From Micromonospora sp. MA102 (GTDB taxonomy: Bacteria; Actinomycetota; Actinomycetes; Mycobacteriales; Micromonosporaceae), in contig NZ_JAMWEG010000004.1 in the NCBI RefSeq assembly GCF_025460765.1, forward strand, positions 248,001-312,000: a stretch of 64,000 nt of DNA, in the 5' to 3' direction. Below, piece after piece: positions 53,542-57,452 of this stretch. The notes below the pieces were generated by a model that was not told where the DNA came from, searched no databases, and saw nothing but the letters and a program-made list of their open reading frames with translations. Made by a program: the position numbers and the translations under genes. Positions within the stretch are counted from its first letter, which is position 1; each line of letters opens with the position of its first letter.

Positions 53542-53862
53542 GAGATCTCCCCCGATTTCCGTGCGTCCGCGACGGGCGTTCCATCGCGGTGCTCGCGGGC
53601 GTGCAACGTGCCGGCCTCCACGAACGGCGTCAATGGTCGCAGGTTCGGACACTCCCCGCTGCCCCGCGAACACCGCCCGCTGTCGCTCCGCACGTGGGTG
53701 ACGACGCCACCGATTCGGAGCTGGTGACGGCGTACCGGCATGAACCGACGCTGCTCACCGGGAGCGAGGGGAGCAAACCCTCCCCGCTTCGTCACCTGTC
53801 GCCCGGGCGCCGTCCCTGGTTTTCTCTCTGCCGACGGGATCTCGAGAGAAAGCAGGGTTTCC
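53542..53862 (+). other. Structured 321-bp leader region before secreted protein gene
   Basis: No gene is seen. The region has three pairings. GGGGAG pairs with CTCCCC across CAAACC near 53769-53785. TTTCTCTC (53821-53828) pairs with GAGAGAAA (53844-53851). AAACCCT (53775-53781) is complementary to AGGGTTT (53854-53860), just before the ATG at 53863. The last pairing would cover the ribosome-binding site AGCAGGG, so the leader might control translation. Confidence 0.4.
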
Positions 53863-54291
53863 ATGTCGTTGCTCCGCCGTACCCTCGCCACCGCGGCCGT
53901 GGCCCTCGCCGCCGGCGCCATCGCCGTGGTCGACGCGTCCCCGGCGCTGGCCAGCACGCCGGCGAGCTGCTCCAGCGTCCGCCAGATCGGCACGACCCGC
54001 GTGCTCACCGTCGGCGGCGTGCAGGCCGCCTCGGTGAAGCAGTACTACGGCTGTGGCTACAACTACGCCTACATCTACGTGTGGGAGCAGTACCGGGCCA
54101 ACCACTCGAACTGGGACCTGTACGTCCATGTCATCGACGAGTCGGACAGCGGCACCGACTACGGGGTGGGCGAGCTGAACAACACCACCCGGGCGGAGCT
54201 GTGGGGCAAGCCGGCGAACACGGCCGCGCACTGCACCCACGTCACCGGCTACCTGAACTCGACGGGCGGCTCGACCAGCACCGTCTGCTGA
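53863..54291 (+). CDS. Secreted four-cysteine protein homologous to kinase ectodomain
   Basis: A 142-residue exported protein. The signal peptide (MSLLRRTLATAAVALAAGAI, then AVVDASPALA) is followed by a mature domain of about 110 residues with four cysteines: SCSS, YGCGY, HCTH and TVC. Key segments SVKQYYGCGYNYAYIYVWEQYR and AELWGKPANTAAHC recur, cysteines included, in the extracellular C-terminus of the kinase encoded next (SVKQYWSPSC and YELWTEPWPSAGRC). The domain family is not recognised otherwise. It may be a ligand, decoy or co-receptor for the kinase. ATG 53863 follows AGCAGGG, which can pair with an upstream sequence. Confidence 0.75.
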   Translation: MSLLRRTLATAAVALAAGAIAVVDASPALASTPASCSSVRQIGTTRVLTVGGVQAASVKQYYGCGYNYAYIYVWEQYRANHSNWDLYVHVIDESDSGTDYGVGELNNTTRAELWGKPANTAAHCTHVTGYLNSTGGSTSTVC

Positions 54292-54307
54292 CCCCCGCCC
54301 GCACGGC

Positions 54308-54338
54308 GTCCCGGGTCGCGCCTGGGGCGGCCCGGGAC
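54308..54338. terminator. Hairpin after the secreted four-cysteine gene
   Basis: GTCCCGGG (54308-54315) and CCCGGGAC (54331-54338) form a perfect stem 16 bases after the stop codon. It is the first of three hairpins in the gap. Confidence 0.6.
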
Positions 54339-54380
54339 ACCCCCGGCTCCACAACGATCACCGATCCGCCGAAGGGGGGC

Positions 54381-54408
54381 GGGGCCGGCCGGCCACACGT
54401 CCGGCCCC
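54381..54408. terminator. Second hairpin in the gap before the kinase gene
   Basis: GGGGCCGG (54381-54388) and CCGGCCCC (54401-54408) pair across a 12-base loop. Confidence 0.4.
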
Positions 54409-54420
54409 GGTGGCGACACT

Positions 54421-54456
54421 CGACGGTCCGTGCCCTGCTCGGGGCACGGACCGTCG
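54421..54456. terminator. Perfect 15-bp hairpin upstream of kinase gene
   Basis: CGACGGTCCGTGCCC (54421-54435) and its exact complement (54442-54456) enclose a six-base loop. It is the strongest stem in the gap and lies 54 bases before the kinase -10-like TAGCAT (54510-54515). Confidence 0.6.
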
Positions 54457-54524
54457 GCGTCGGCGCCGACGGGTGCACCCGAGCGTCGGAGGCCGTTCCG
54501 ACCCGTCGGTAGCATTCAGCGGCG

Positions 54525-56333
54525 ATGGTCCACAGCGAGCAGCCGGTGACGCACCGCCCCGAGCCGGGCGCCGGCGTCGATCTGGGGATCGCCGGGTGCA
54601 CCGACGCCGTGGAGGTCGGGCGGGGCGGGTTCGGCGTCGTCTACCGGGCCTGGCAGGCCGACTACTCCCGCTGGGTGGCGGTGAAGGTGCTCGCCGCCGA
54701 CTGGGCCGGGCCGTCGCGGGCCCGCTTCGAGCGGGAACTGCGCGCCCTGGGCCGGCTCTCCGACCATCCGCACATCGTCACCCTGCACCAGGCCGGCCGG
54801 ACCGCCGCCGGAAACCCGTACCTGCTGATGGCGTACGAGGAGGGCGGCTCGCTGGGCGACCGGCTGCGCCTCGGCACGGCGGGTGACTGGCGGGCGGCCG
54901 TCGCCGGCGGGATCGCGGTGGCCGGCGCGCTGGAGACCGCGCACCGGGCCGGGGTCCTGCACCGCGACGTGAAGCCGGAGAACATCCTGGTCTCCGGGTA
55001 CGGGGAGCCGAAGCTGGCCGACTTCGGCCAGGCCCGGGCCGGCGCGGACCGTCCCGGCACGCGGGGCACGGTCACCGCGAGCGTGCTGCACGCCGCCCCG
55101 GAGGTGCTGCGCGGCGAGCCGGCCTCGGTGGCCGCCGACGTCTACGCGCTGGCCTCGACCGTGCTGCACTGGATCCGCGGCACGCCGGCCTTCGCGCCCG
55201 CCGCCGGGGAGTCCACCGACGCCCTGCTGCGCCGGATCGCCGCCGACCCGGTGCCGGACCTGCGCCCGCTCGGCGTACCCGACGGGGTGTGCGCGGCGCT
55301 GGAGCGCGCGCTGGCCAAGGATCCGGCGCGGCGGCCGGTGTCGGTCGCGGAGTTCGCGGCCGAGCTGCGGGCCGCCCAGGCCGCGGCGGGGCTGCCGGTG
55401 ACCCCCTTCGTCCCCGGCGACGTGGCCGCCGACGACGGGGTGCGGACGGCCCCGCCGGCCGGCCCGGCGCCGTCGCTGTCGGCCCGCCGCCGCGCGGCCC
55501 TCGCCCTCTCCGCCACGGTGGCGGGACCCTCCCGGGTACGCCGGCACGCGCTGCGCCGCACCGTCGGCCTGGCCGTGGCGGTGGCGGCCGTGCTGGCCAC
55601 CGGGTACGCGCAGGCACCGCCCCCGCCCGCCCCGGTGACCCTGCCCGAGCGGGTGGAGCTGGGCGAGCTGACCCTGCACGCCGAGTCGGCGGAGCGGCTG
55701 GTGCGGGTGCGCAACCGCGCCGACCACCCGGTGACCGTGGGCGGGGTGAGGGTGGGTGGCCCGTCCGGGGGTGAGCTGCGGATCGTCGAGGACGGGTGCG
55801 GGTCGCGGCGGCTCGCCCCGGGGGCCGCCTGCGACGTGGGGCTGGTCGTGGTGCCCCGGGTGGTCGGGCCGGTCCGGGCGGTGCTGGAGCTGACCGTGGC
55901 CGGCCGGCGGGTGAGCACGACGCTGGCCGGCACGGCGGGACCCCGCCGGGCGGCCCAGGACGACGCCCCGCCCGGCCGGTGCTACGCCGACGCCTACCAG
56001 ATCGGCGCGTCCGCCTACGGCTACGCGGGCGGGCTGCGCGCCATCTCGGTGAAGCAGTACTGGTCGCCGAGCTGTCGCGCGGCGATGGCGTACGTCTGGG
56101 TGTGGAAGCAGTACCGGGACAACGTGTCGACGGGCGGCGGCACCTGGACCGTCGACCTGGCGGTGCGGGCGGACGGGCCGCGGGCGCGGCAGCGCGCCAC
56201 CGGCCAGCCGTACGAGCTGTGGACCGAGCCGTGGCCGTCGGCGGGGCGGTGCGTCACCGCCACGGCGACGGTGACCGTCATCCACTCCGGCGCGGTGACC
56301 TCGGCGACCACCGAGCCGTGGTGCGACCGGTGA
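54525..56333 (+). CDS. Transmembrane Ser/Thr protein kinase with Ig-like and four-Cys ectodomain
   Basis: A 602-residue receptor kinase. The kinase domain (about 25-285) has the glycine loop VGRGGFGVVY, VAVKVL (Lys54), the catalytic HRDVKPEN (His146), DFG at 166 and APEVLRG. One span lies at about 345-365. Outside come an Ig-like ASH-type domain (about 371-475, VELGELTLHAESAERLVRVRN...) and a C-terminal 110-residue domain with four cysteines homologous to the secreted protein at 53863. There are no PASTA repeats. ATG 54525 has TAGCAT nine bases upstream. The next gene, an FHA protein, overlaps its end and is a likely substrate. Confidence 0.88.
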   Translation: MVHSEQPVTHRPEPGAGVDLGIAGCTDAVEVGRGGFGVVYRAWQADYSRWVAVKVLAADWAGPSRARFERELRALGRLSDHPHIVTLHQAGRTAAGNPYLLMAYEEGGSLGDRLRLGTAGDWRAAVAGGIAVAGALETAHRAGVLHRDVKPENILVSGYGEPKLADFGQARAGADRPGTRGTVTASVLHAAPEVLRGEPASVAADVYALASTVLHWIRGTPAFAPAAGESTDALLRRIAADPVPDLRPLGVPDGVCAALERALAKDPARRPVSVAEFAAELRAAQAAAGLPVTPFVPGDVAADDGVRTAPPAGPAPSLSARRRAALALSATVAGPSRVRRHALRRTVGLAVAVAAVLATGYAQAPPPPAPVTLPERVELGELTLHAESAERLVRVRNRADHPVTVGGVRVGGPSGGELRIVEDGCGSRRLAPGAACDVGLVVVPRVVGPVRAVLELTVAGRRVSTTLAGTAGPRRAAQDDAPPGRCYADAYQIGASAYGYAGGLRAISVKQYWSPSCRAAMAYVWVWKQYRDNVSTGGGTWTVDLAVRADGPRARQRATGQPYELWTEPWPSAGRCVTATATVTVIHSGAVTSATTEPWCDR

Positions 56334-56914
56334 CCGGCGGCTGGTTCGAGGTGCACGGCACCGGGCCGGTGCGCCTCGTGCCGCTCAGCGTGGACACCCT
56401 GACCATCGGCCGGGCCCCCGGCAACGAGCTGCCCATCGACAGCCGGTTGGTCTCCCGGCTGCACGCGCTGGTGGAGCGCTTCCCGTCGGGCTGGATCATC
56501 CGCGACCTGGGCAGCACCAACGGCACCACGGTCAACGGGGCGCCGCTGCGCGAGGCCCGTACCCTGCACGACGGCGACCGGGTGGAGGTCGGGCCGGCGC
56601 GGCTGGTGTTCCGGGCCCCCGGGCAGCACACCGGCACGCGTACGGTCGGCGTCGAGGCGCCGCCCGCCCCGCCGGCGCTGACCCGCCGGGAGGGTGAGCT
56701 GCTCGACGCGCTGTGCCGCCCGTACCTGGCCGGGGGCGACACCTTCCCGGAGCCGCCGGCCGTGCGGGTGCTGGCCGGCACCCTGGGCGTCAGCGAGAGC
56801 GCGGTGAAGAAGCACCTGACCCGGCTTTACGACAAGTTCGGCCTGGTCAGCAACGACGACCGCCGCCGGGCGCGGCTGGCCGCCGAGGCGGTCCGCCGGG
56901 GCGCGGTGAGCTGA
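56330..56914 (+). CDS. FHA-domain protein with C-terminal helix-turn-helix
   Basis: A 194-residue protein. Residues of about 10-90 form an FHA domain (LTIGRAPGNELPIDSRLVSRLHALVER..., with GSTNGTTVNGAPL), which binds phosphothreonine. After a Pro-rich linker with threonines (TGTRTVGVEAPPAPPALT), residues of about 110-185 form a helical domain with VLAGTLGVSESAVKKHLTRLYDKFGL, a winged-helix-like or LuxR-like HTH. GTG 56330 overlaps the kinase stop as GTGA; GTGs at 56318 and 56321 are alternatives. It could be a transcription factor switched by the kinase, as in EmbR-like systems. Confidence 0.85.
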   Translation: MTGGWFEVHGTGPVRLVPLSVDTLTIGRAPGNELPIDSRLVSRLHALVERFPSGWIIRDLGSTNGTTVNGAPLREARTLHDGDRVEVGPARLVFRAPGQHTGTRTVGVEAPPAPPALTRREGELLDALCRPYLAGGDTFPEPPAVRVLAGTLGVSESAVKKHLTRLYDKFGLVSNDDRRRARLAAEAVRRGAVS

Positions 56915-56969
56915 CGCGAGGCCGTTCACCTGGTACGACGGTGGGACCAGCCGAGCCGAGGAGGTACCG

Positions 56970-57452
56970 ATGACCGGTGGACGGGAGACCGTGGAGGTCG
57001 ACCCGGTGGTGTTCCGCGCCGTCTACGACTCGCCCGCCTCGCTGCCGGGCCGGCACCGCTGGACCACGCCCGAGTCGGACGTGCGCCGGTTGGAGAAGCT
57101 GCTGAACATGCCGGCGCGGAGCATCGGCGCCCCGCTGTGGGTGAGCGGCGACGAGCCGGACTGTCCGAAGTGCGGGCGCCGGGTGAACTGGTACGACATC
57201 GTCTCCTCCGCCCTGCACGGGGTGCACGACCGGGGGATGATCGCGCGGGTGATCCTGGGCGAGCGCAAGTACGTCAACACCGAGGTGCCGGACGCCATCC
57301 CCGGCGTGCACTGCGCCGACTGCCGCACCGCGATCGAGGGGCTGCGCAGCTTCAAGTGCCACAACTGGGCGTACGCCTTCGAGGAGCTGGAGGAGATCGT
57401 CGGGCGGATGTCGGGCGTGCCGAGTCAGCCGGCGCCGCCCACCTCCGCCTGA
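56970..57452 (+). CDS. Zinc-ribbon protein of unknown function
   Basis: A 160-residue soluble protein. Two cysteine pairs, CPKCGRRVNWYDI and HCADCRTAIEG, are about 60 residues apart and probably bind one zinc. Between them is a helical stretch with HGVHDRGMIARVILGERKYVN. The protein begins VDPVVFRAVYDSPASLPGRHRW and ends in a helix (YAFEELEEIVGRMSG). GAGGAGG lies five bases before ATG 56970. It follows the FHA gene by 55 bases on the same strand and may be part of its operon. Its end overlaps the convergent GH65 gene by 28 bases. Confidence 0.7.
   Translation: MTGGRETVEVDPVVFRAVYDSPASLPGRHRWTTPESDVRRLEKLLNMPARSIGAPLWVSGDEPDCPKCGRRVNWYDIVSSALHGVHDRGMIARVILGERKYVNTEVPDAIPGVHCADCRTAIEGLRSFKCHNWAYAFEELEEIVGRMSGVPSQPAPPTSA

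Follow-up and report, generated by a model that had tools for sequence, protein, structure and literature searches.

For many bacterial receptor kinases, the ligand is not known. Among the described systems that come closest to the locus reported here, the kinase PknH of Mycobacterium tuberculosis is encoded in one operon with EmbR, a transcription factor carrying an FHA domain, and EmbR is phosphorylated in vitro, which was not detectable in M. tuberculosis under normal growth (PMC9239209). Domains like the PknH sensor recur in LpqQ, LprH, LppH, LpqA and Rv3705c (PMC7785237, PMC9239209 and PMC4118811), and in Clostridium thermocellum the GH10 module of RsgI6 is 57% identical to Xyn10D (PMC4711584). 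Here we describe a locus in a 64,000-nucleotide stretch of Micromonospora sp. MA102 (contig NZ_JAMWEG010000004.1, positions 248,001 to 312,000; the window), in which a receptor Ser/Thr kinase and a secreted protein encoded next to it carry the same four-cysteine (four-Cys) domain, and the kinase gene runs into a gene for an FHA protein with a helix-turn-helix (FHA-HTH). We hold with moderate confidence that the kinase and the FHA-HTH regulator control a small secreted-protein regulon through a conserved 33-bp upstream element, and that the product of this regulon has the domain of the sensor itself.

We use secA as a label for the gene and the secreted protein of 142 amino acids, and secB for a sister secreted family. 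The genes and domains that carry the argument are the following.

53863 to 54291, plus strand: secA, secreted protein of 142 amino acids, signal peptide (by eye) and then the four-Cys domain
54525 to 56333, plus strand: receptor Ser/Thr kinase of 602 amino acids (translated reading frame, Pfam match)
54609 to 55382, plus strand: kinase domain, about residues 29 to 286 (Pfam, NCBIfam)
55560 to 55607, plus strand: likely transmembrane segment, about residues 346 to 361 (hydrophobic stretch, by eye)
55629 to 55943, plus strand: ASH/PapD-like Ig domain of the kinase ectodomain (profile and structure comparison)
55953 to 56330, plus strand: four-Cys domain of the kinase, homologous to secA (BLASTP, profile-profile comparison, model)
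56321 to 56914, plus strand: FHA-HTH protein of 197 amino acids, starting within the kinase gene (HTH match weak, GerE E 0.011)

Translation places all four open reading frames named in a preliminary description of this sequence (secA, kinase, FHA-HTH and zinc-ribbon) where it had put them. The FHA-HTH frame above is counted from the first GTG, and a second GTG at 56330 would leave a 4-base GTGA overlap with the kinase gene; the overlap of the two genes had also been described.

The secA protein and the kinase C terminus have a domain of about 110 residues in common. BLASTP aligned the two with 31% identity over 105 amino acids (E 9e-11), and hhalign comparison of a secA-group with a kinase-group profile (6 rows each) gave a probability of 98.3% (E 2.1e-14). 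In the domain sequences of the window genome and other genomes, from which 8 of 74 matches (truncated, split or duplicate) had been removed beforehand, three cysteines are kept in 66/66 and the fourth in 64/66. Confident AlphaFold2 models were obtained for the secA domain (mean predicted local distance difference test, pLDDT, 92.4; input of 27 sequences from both groups) and for the ectodomain (mean pLDDT 92.2; input of 17 kinase sequences only), and within the domain both run through three strands, a short helix and five strands when compared by order. The ectodomain model has two extra short helices ahead of the four-Cys domain. These data, with a similarity well beyond chance, confirm that secA and the kinase ectodomain carry the same domain, and the likeness with four shared cysteines claimed in the preliminary description is upheld by alignment, by profile and by the predicted order of strands.

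The kinase domain in the window matches Pkinase of Pfam with E 1.7e-35 and contains the catalytic motifs VAVKV, HRDVKPEN and DFG, which qualifies it, as judged from its sequence, as a Hanks-type kinase. No PASTA repeat of Pfam was matched in the window kinase at E up to 1, and the best NCBIfam match, PknB_PASTA_kin, spans the kinase domain only and lies below its cut-off. The first half of the ectodomain resembles CEP192 (7ptb; Z 14.1, root mean square deviation 1.9 over 102 residues), and Pfam ASH matches 11 of the 17 relatives, the strongest at E 5.6e-5, though with a limit of E 1 the window's own sequence gives none. We conclude that an ASH/PapD-like domain forms the middle of the ectodomain, and the Ig-like domain of ASH type proposed earlier in place of PASTA stands. 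In another genome (G026), the kinase gene (L033 5560-7365) has an in-frame TGA within the four-Cys domain with the frame open beyond it, which may be a nonsense change, a sequencing error or decay.

The FHA-HTH gene follows the kinase gene in all 28 distinct kinase genes with an available 3' flank, the window included, so the coupling of the two genes read from the window is a fixed one. The pair in G009 is split over two contigs and was left out of the 28; one contig end there (L032/L136 7951-8076) fuses the kinase to a piece of a GH65-like gene, probably an assembly artefact, and the kinase tail followed by the FHA gene stands at the beginning of contig C13. Twelve full-length FHA-HTH relatives in other genera, 45 to 51% identical (five weaker FHA matches were left out of this set), stand behind kinases without the four-Cys domain, which carry another conserved ectodomain at the C terminus (L163-L174). 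Because relatives of the FHA-HTH protein stand beside kinases with other ectodomains, the pair resembles a chassis on which sensors can be swapped.

We then compared gene content in 160 genomes of the genus and assigned each match manually to the kinase, to secA or to secB from the length of its frame, its score and, where available, its sequence; fragments in G009, G022, G071 and G247 were left out of the counts. The kinase was present in 22 genomes, secA in 15 and both in 14; secB was present in 16 (8 of these assigned by score and length alone), and kinase and secB together in 1. A Fisher test, which ignores the shared ancestry of the genomes, gave p 1e-13 for kinase versus secA and 0.70 for kinase versus secB. 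Two secB copies look truncated (L118 6370-7002 and L117 5111-6418, in G071 and G247). In 12 of the 14 genus genomes with both genes, these share a strand and secA is the upstream one, with starts 0.5 to 1.2 kb apart; the two are apart in G011 and G071. Outside the genus, in a 300-genome sample of the family, the kinase occurs in seven genomes (six g29, one g10), secA in seven (all g29) and both in six, and five of these six have the genes head to head with starts about 100 to 150 bp apart (G239 being counted from a kinase N terminus at a contig end), while in G308 they lie on different contigs. The association seen in the window is thus kept in two genus groups of the Micromonosporaceae, and the same-strand order in the genus and the head-to-head order in g29 mean that linkage was kept through a change of orientation. 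Of the two results that the preliminary description would have taken as refutation, different predicted folds and a secreted gene and kinase gene never found together, neither was obtained; the strand order agrees and the co-occurrence is strong.

It could be argued that the kinase locus owes its place beside secA to descent alone and that the two are functionally unconnected. The relatedness of the genomes inflates the co-occurrence count, and the zinc-ribbon gene described below shows how a plain neighbour can resemble a partner; we nevertheless regard such hitchhiking as very improbable, because the linkage exists in two orientations, an unusual domain is in common, and the upstream element is kept even at unlinked secA copies. 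The same linkage in two arrangements, the paralogous domains and the presence of the kinase in 14 of the 15 secA genomes of the genus would also suit a secreted protein that is a ligand or antagonist of the kinase, acting through homotypic four-Cys contact in direct autocrine feedback. This we consider improbable as well, since 8 of the 22 genomes of the genus that have the kinase are without secA, identity between the two domains is about 31% and far higher inside each group, and the family also occurs away from these kinases, as secB and as seven copies in G160.

Upstream of secA lie two further features.

53768 to 53800, plus strand: conserved 33-bp upstream element GGGGAGNNAANNGTNNCCNNTTCGNCACCTNTC, 1 mismatch in the window, candidate regulator site (alignment, pattern search)
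53816 to 53825, plus strand: CTGGTTNTCT-type block, putatively -10-like (sequence comparison)

Comparison of secA upstream regions revealed one strongly conserved block, present at 21 of 22 genes. The distance from its GGGG to the secA start codon is 93 to 102 bp in 15 Micromonospora genes and 65 to 92 bp in 6 others. Between the 15 Micromonospora and 6 Actinoplanes-group copies, the element is 76% identical (68% without the nine positions used for locating it), whereas for the same 15 versus 6 the four flanks ahead of it reach 30% and the stretch immediately behind it 40%. With up to 3 mismatches allowed, the pattern gave 22 sites in 18 of 20 genomes, which were a chosen and not a random sample, and the reversed pattern gave 0 sites in the same 20; the window has one site against none in 100 shuffles. 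The element stands ahead of 17 of the 18 secA genes in this set, including the unlinked copies (G011, G071, G308) and the head-to-head copies, and the sole secA without it belongs to G258, an Actinoplanes-group genome without the kinase. As the pattern was drawn from secA upstream regions, its presence there is expected by construction; the independent signal is how scarce the element is in the rest of the genomes, together with the kinds of genes behind its five other sites. These sites precede three genes for secreted proteins like spore-associated protein A, one for a peptidoglycan-binding-like secreted protein and one kinase gene. By genome, twelve of the 18 have a single site at secA, the single site of G109 lies at the kinase, that of G294 lies at secA in a genome where no kinase was found, and G071, G154, G220 and G260 have two sites each. 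A weight-matrix scan of the loci also found the element 201 to 208 bp before the kinase in the kinase-only genomes G077, G089, G005 and G109, and farther away in G738 and G267, while the scanned secB loci had no site above 14 bits.

Several smaller features accompany the element. Weak element-like sites of 20 to 31 bits lie downstream of the FHA gene and face it (L034 8450, L115 5448, L124 11261, L140 1254), with no convincing gene behind them, and L083 has one further weak site of 23.9 bits. A CTGGTTNTCT-like block ends 7 nucleotides before the ATG in G239, in G308 and at the second G220 site, and in those three genes it looks like a -10 of leaderless transcripts. By eye, the secA leader in the window (53816-53855) holds an inverted repeat, TTTCTCTC...GAGAGAAA, just ahead of the start, and several Micromonospora species have one of the form CTGGT...ACCAG.

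Another explanation is that the element is bound by a different regulator, or is part of an unusual developmental promoter, and that secA and the kinase are co-members of its regulon. The element in G294, where no kinase was found, and its place 201 to 208 bp before the kinase itself in four kinase-only genomes fit such a scheme, and the spore-associated-like and peptidoglycan-binding-like genes behind other sites would suit development. On the other hand, the element is missing at secA of the kinase-free G258 (one of two kinase-free genomes searched), and the kinase has an HTH regulator of its own next door, so that we consider this explanation rather unlikely.

The proposal that we favour, a kinase and FHA-HTH pair with a small secreted-protein regulon, starts from what was directly observed: the shared domain, the fixed kinase-FHA pair, the co-occurrence and linkage of secA and kinase, and the element with the genes downstream of it. 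In this proposal, the membrane Ser/Thr kinase would read an extracellular cue, from the envelope or the spore surface, through the ASH stalk and the four-Cys sensor domain. Phosphorylation by the kinase would engage the FHA-HTH protein, which may then bind and act at the 33-bp element and switch a few secreted surface proteins, above all secA, with a sign of regulation that we infer. The likely logic would be sensing by a borrowed module, in which sensor and secreted product bind the same, presumably common, envelope or spore-surface ligand; if both sit on one ligand, the kinase would gauge the share of it that is already covered or processed by the secreted products. A more specific version appears possible but tentative. 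Here the kinase would monitor its own secreted paralogue, the regulon product and the sensor would either compete for one envelope or spore-surface ligand or assemble on it together, the loop would be closed through the FHA-HTH protein and the dedicated 33-bp element, and the FHA-HTH/kinase pair would be a general chassis whose ectodomain was exchanged between genera.

Several observations weigh against our proposal, besides the shared ancestry that the Fisher test leaves aside. No element above 20 bits was found within 2 kb upstream in 6 of 29 kinase genes (G011, G071, G068, G051, G096, G308), and the G068 genome has no match with 3 mismatches or fewer. The search for the element covered just two genomes without the kinase, of which G258 has none and G294 has one, at a secA for which no kinase was found. 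The eight kinase genomes of the genus without an intact secA indicate that either the kinase works without secA or the partner was lost; a decayed secA remnant is present in the kinase-only G267. Finally, in none of the 12 loci with alternative FHA-HTH kinases does an open reading frame of the same locus resemble the ectodomain, which means that the pairing of sensor and secreted protein is not general to FHA-HTH kinases.

The origin of the shared domain was addressed with a tree of the 66 domains. The kinase ectodomains fall on one side of a branch (support 100/100) and the secA domains likewise (99/100), with secB and a further five secreted sequences joining secA at 96/90; a topology uniting secA with the kinases was not rejected (approximately unbiased test, AU, p 0.54). 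The preliminary description had called the kinase ectodomain a copy of its secreted neighbour. The identity of the domain holds, while the deep separate clades together with the AU result mean that a local tandem duplication is neither shown nor rejected.

The four-Cys domain has no above-threshold family in Pfam or NCBIfam, and the best PHROGs match was E 0.073 for secA with none for the kinase copy. The only recurrent weak Pfam match was DUF2690 (PF10901), in 6 of 27 members at a best E of 0.012, below threshold, and a DUF2690 profile search of the window's own genome gave no match at the secA or kinase position. When hhalign compared a broad family alignment with 13 DUF2690 sequences, the score was 28.5 (probability 44%), and the match spans just the N-terminal 42 columns; column-shuffled controls (n=60) had a mean of 10.0, a standard deviation of 1.7 and a maximum of 14.6, and the reversed profile scored 11.3. 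With a narrower family alignment the probability was only 15%, and the second half of the domain was unaligned. Membership in DUF2690 was rejected as below the curated cut-off, and DUF2690 may possibly be remote kin of the four-Cys domain. The best-scoring structural neighbour, a tentative one, is the MspA rim domain (2v9u; Z 9.3, root mean square deviation 2.6 over 91 residues), with the next match at Z 6.9; Foldseek returned nothing at E < 0.001 for the four-Cys model, and the search of solved structures by sequence gave only antibody chains (E >= 0.04) with a single sequence and none with a profile. PADLOC had no match for the secA, FHA-HTH and zinc-ribbon proteins; the kinase had many, and among them all of the matches listed (25) start at residue 26 or later, in the kinase domain or extending from it.

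Matches to the four-Cys domain occur in 50 of the 300 genomes sampled from the window's family (9 of 44 genera), and of 396 genomes sampled across the phylum two have a match, that of the window included; the plasmid collection contains no secA relative. G160 has seven family members, four of them in tandem (L104 6607-8536, L103, L105), in short frames not of kinase size, and G504, from another family of the class, has two adjoining members (L116 5950-7486). The locus points to an actinobacterial domain family that lacks annotation.

Behind the FHA-HTH gene lies the following gene.

56970 to 57452, plus strand: zinc-ribbon protein of 160 amino acids (translated reading frame)

This protein is matched in 131 of the 160 genus genomes (one only at E 7.7e-4), compared with 22 for the kinase. 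In 9 of the 16 loci having both genes, the gap from FHA to zinc-ribbon is about 0.9 to 1.3 kb, with another gene between them in the loci read, and none of the Actinoplanes-group or G109 kinase loci examined has the zinc-ribbon gene. We rejected it as a fourth partner because it is genus-wide and often separated from the FHA gene; the role in the system suggested earlier gives way to that of a plain neighbour. In seven genomes, a second small secreted gene follows secA, spore-associated-like in G011, G308, G260, G325 and G728 and of another type in G026 and G038; the window lacks it.

In this locus the sensor is accompanied by a small free relative that is secreted, by a coupled regulator and by a short candidate target site with few genes behind it. 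A single system therefore allows separate tests of the ligand, of phosphorylation, of DNA binding and of the output, which is an unusually testable layout. In the open-licence literature, we recognised no paper that describes this locus. The preliminary description was right in its observation and partly so in its interpretation, and its statement that no described system has this layout goes too far, given that PknH-EmbR joins a kinase to an FHA regulator and has a sensor domain that recurs in free lipoproteins. Each part of the locus has a precedent; what was not found described in that literature is their union at a single locus, where a free paralogue lies next to the kinase and a common element controls it in our reading. 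The PASTA kinases (PknB/Stk) likewise are membrane kinases with an extracellular domain, but here no PASTA match was found and the neighbour is an FHA-HTH gene, where in PASTA kinases it is generally a phosphatase gene (PMC6213207). PknQ and MupFHA of Mycobacterium ulcerans are a kinase and an FHA protein that are encoded on the same plasmid and interact, and the abstract of PMC4238996 does not describe MupFHA as a DNA-binding regulator or mention a shared ectodomain. In RsgI/SigI of Clostridium thermocellum, a membrane sensor and secreted enzymes have one kind of extracellular module in common (PMC4711584), which recalls the sharing seen here; however, RsgI is an anti-sigma factor and not a kinase, the domains are others, and the RsgI4 sensor of another species has no more than a middling fold resemblance to the four-Cys domain (Z 6.9). 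PknH-EmbR shares with this locus a receptor Ser/Thr kinase encoded with an FHA regulator, and the PknH sensor, which has two disulfides and recurs in lipoproteins and Rv3705c, recalls the shared four-Cys domain. None of 27 members of the four-Cys family gave a Pfam match to the PknH sensor family with the E limit set to 10, although most matches beyond about 0.1 are removed by the filters of HMMER, and EmbR has an OmpR-type DNA-binding domain, a BTAD and a C-terminal FHA domain, whereas the regulator here is a small FHA protein with a C-terminal HTH. Compared with PknH, moreover, the kinase described here has an ASH stalk, and its free paralogue is adjacent and apparently co-regulated.

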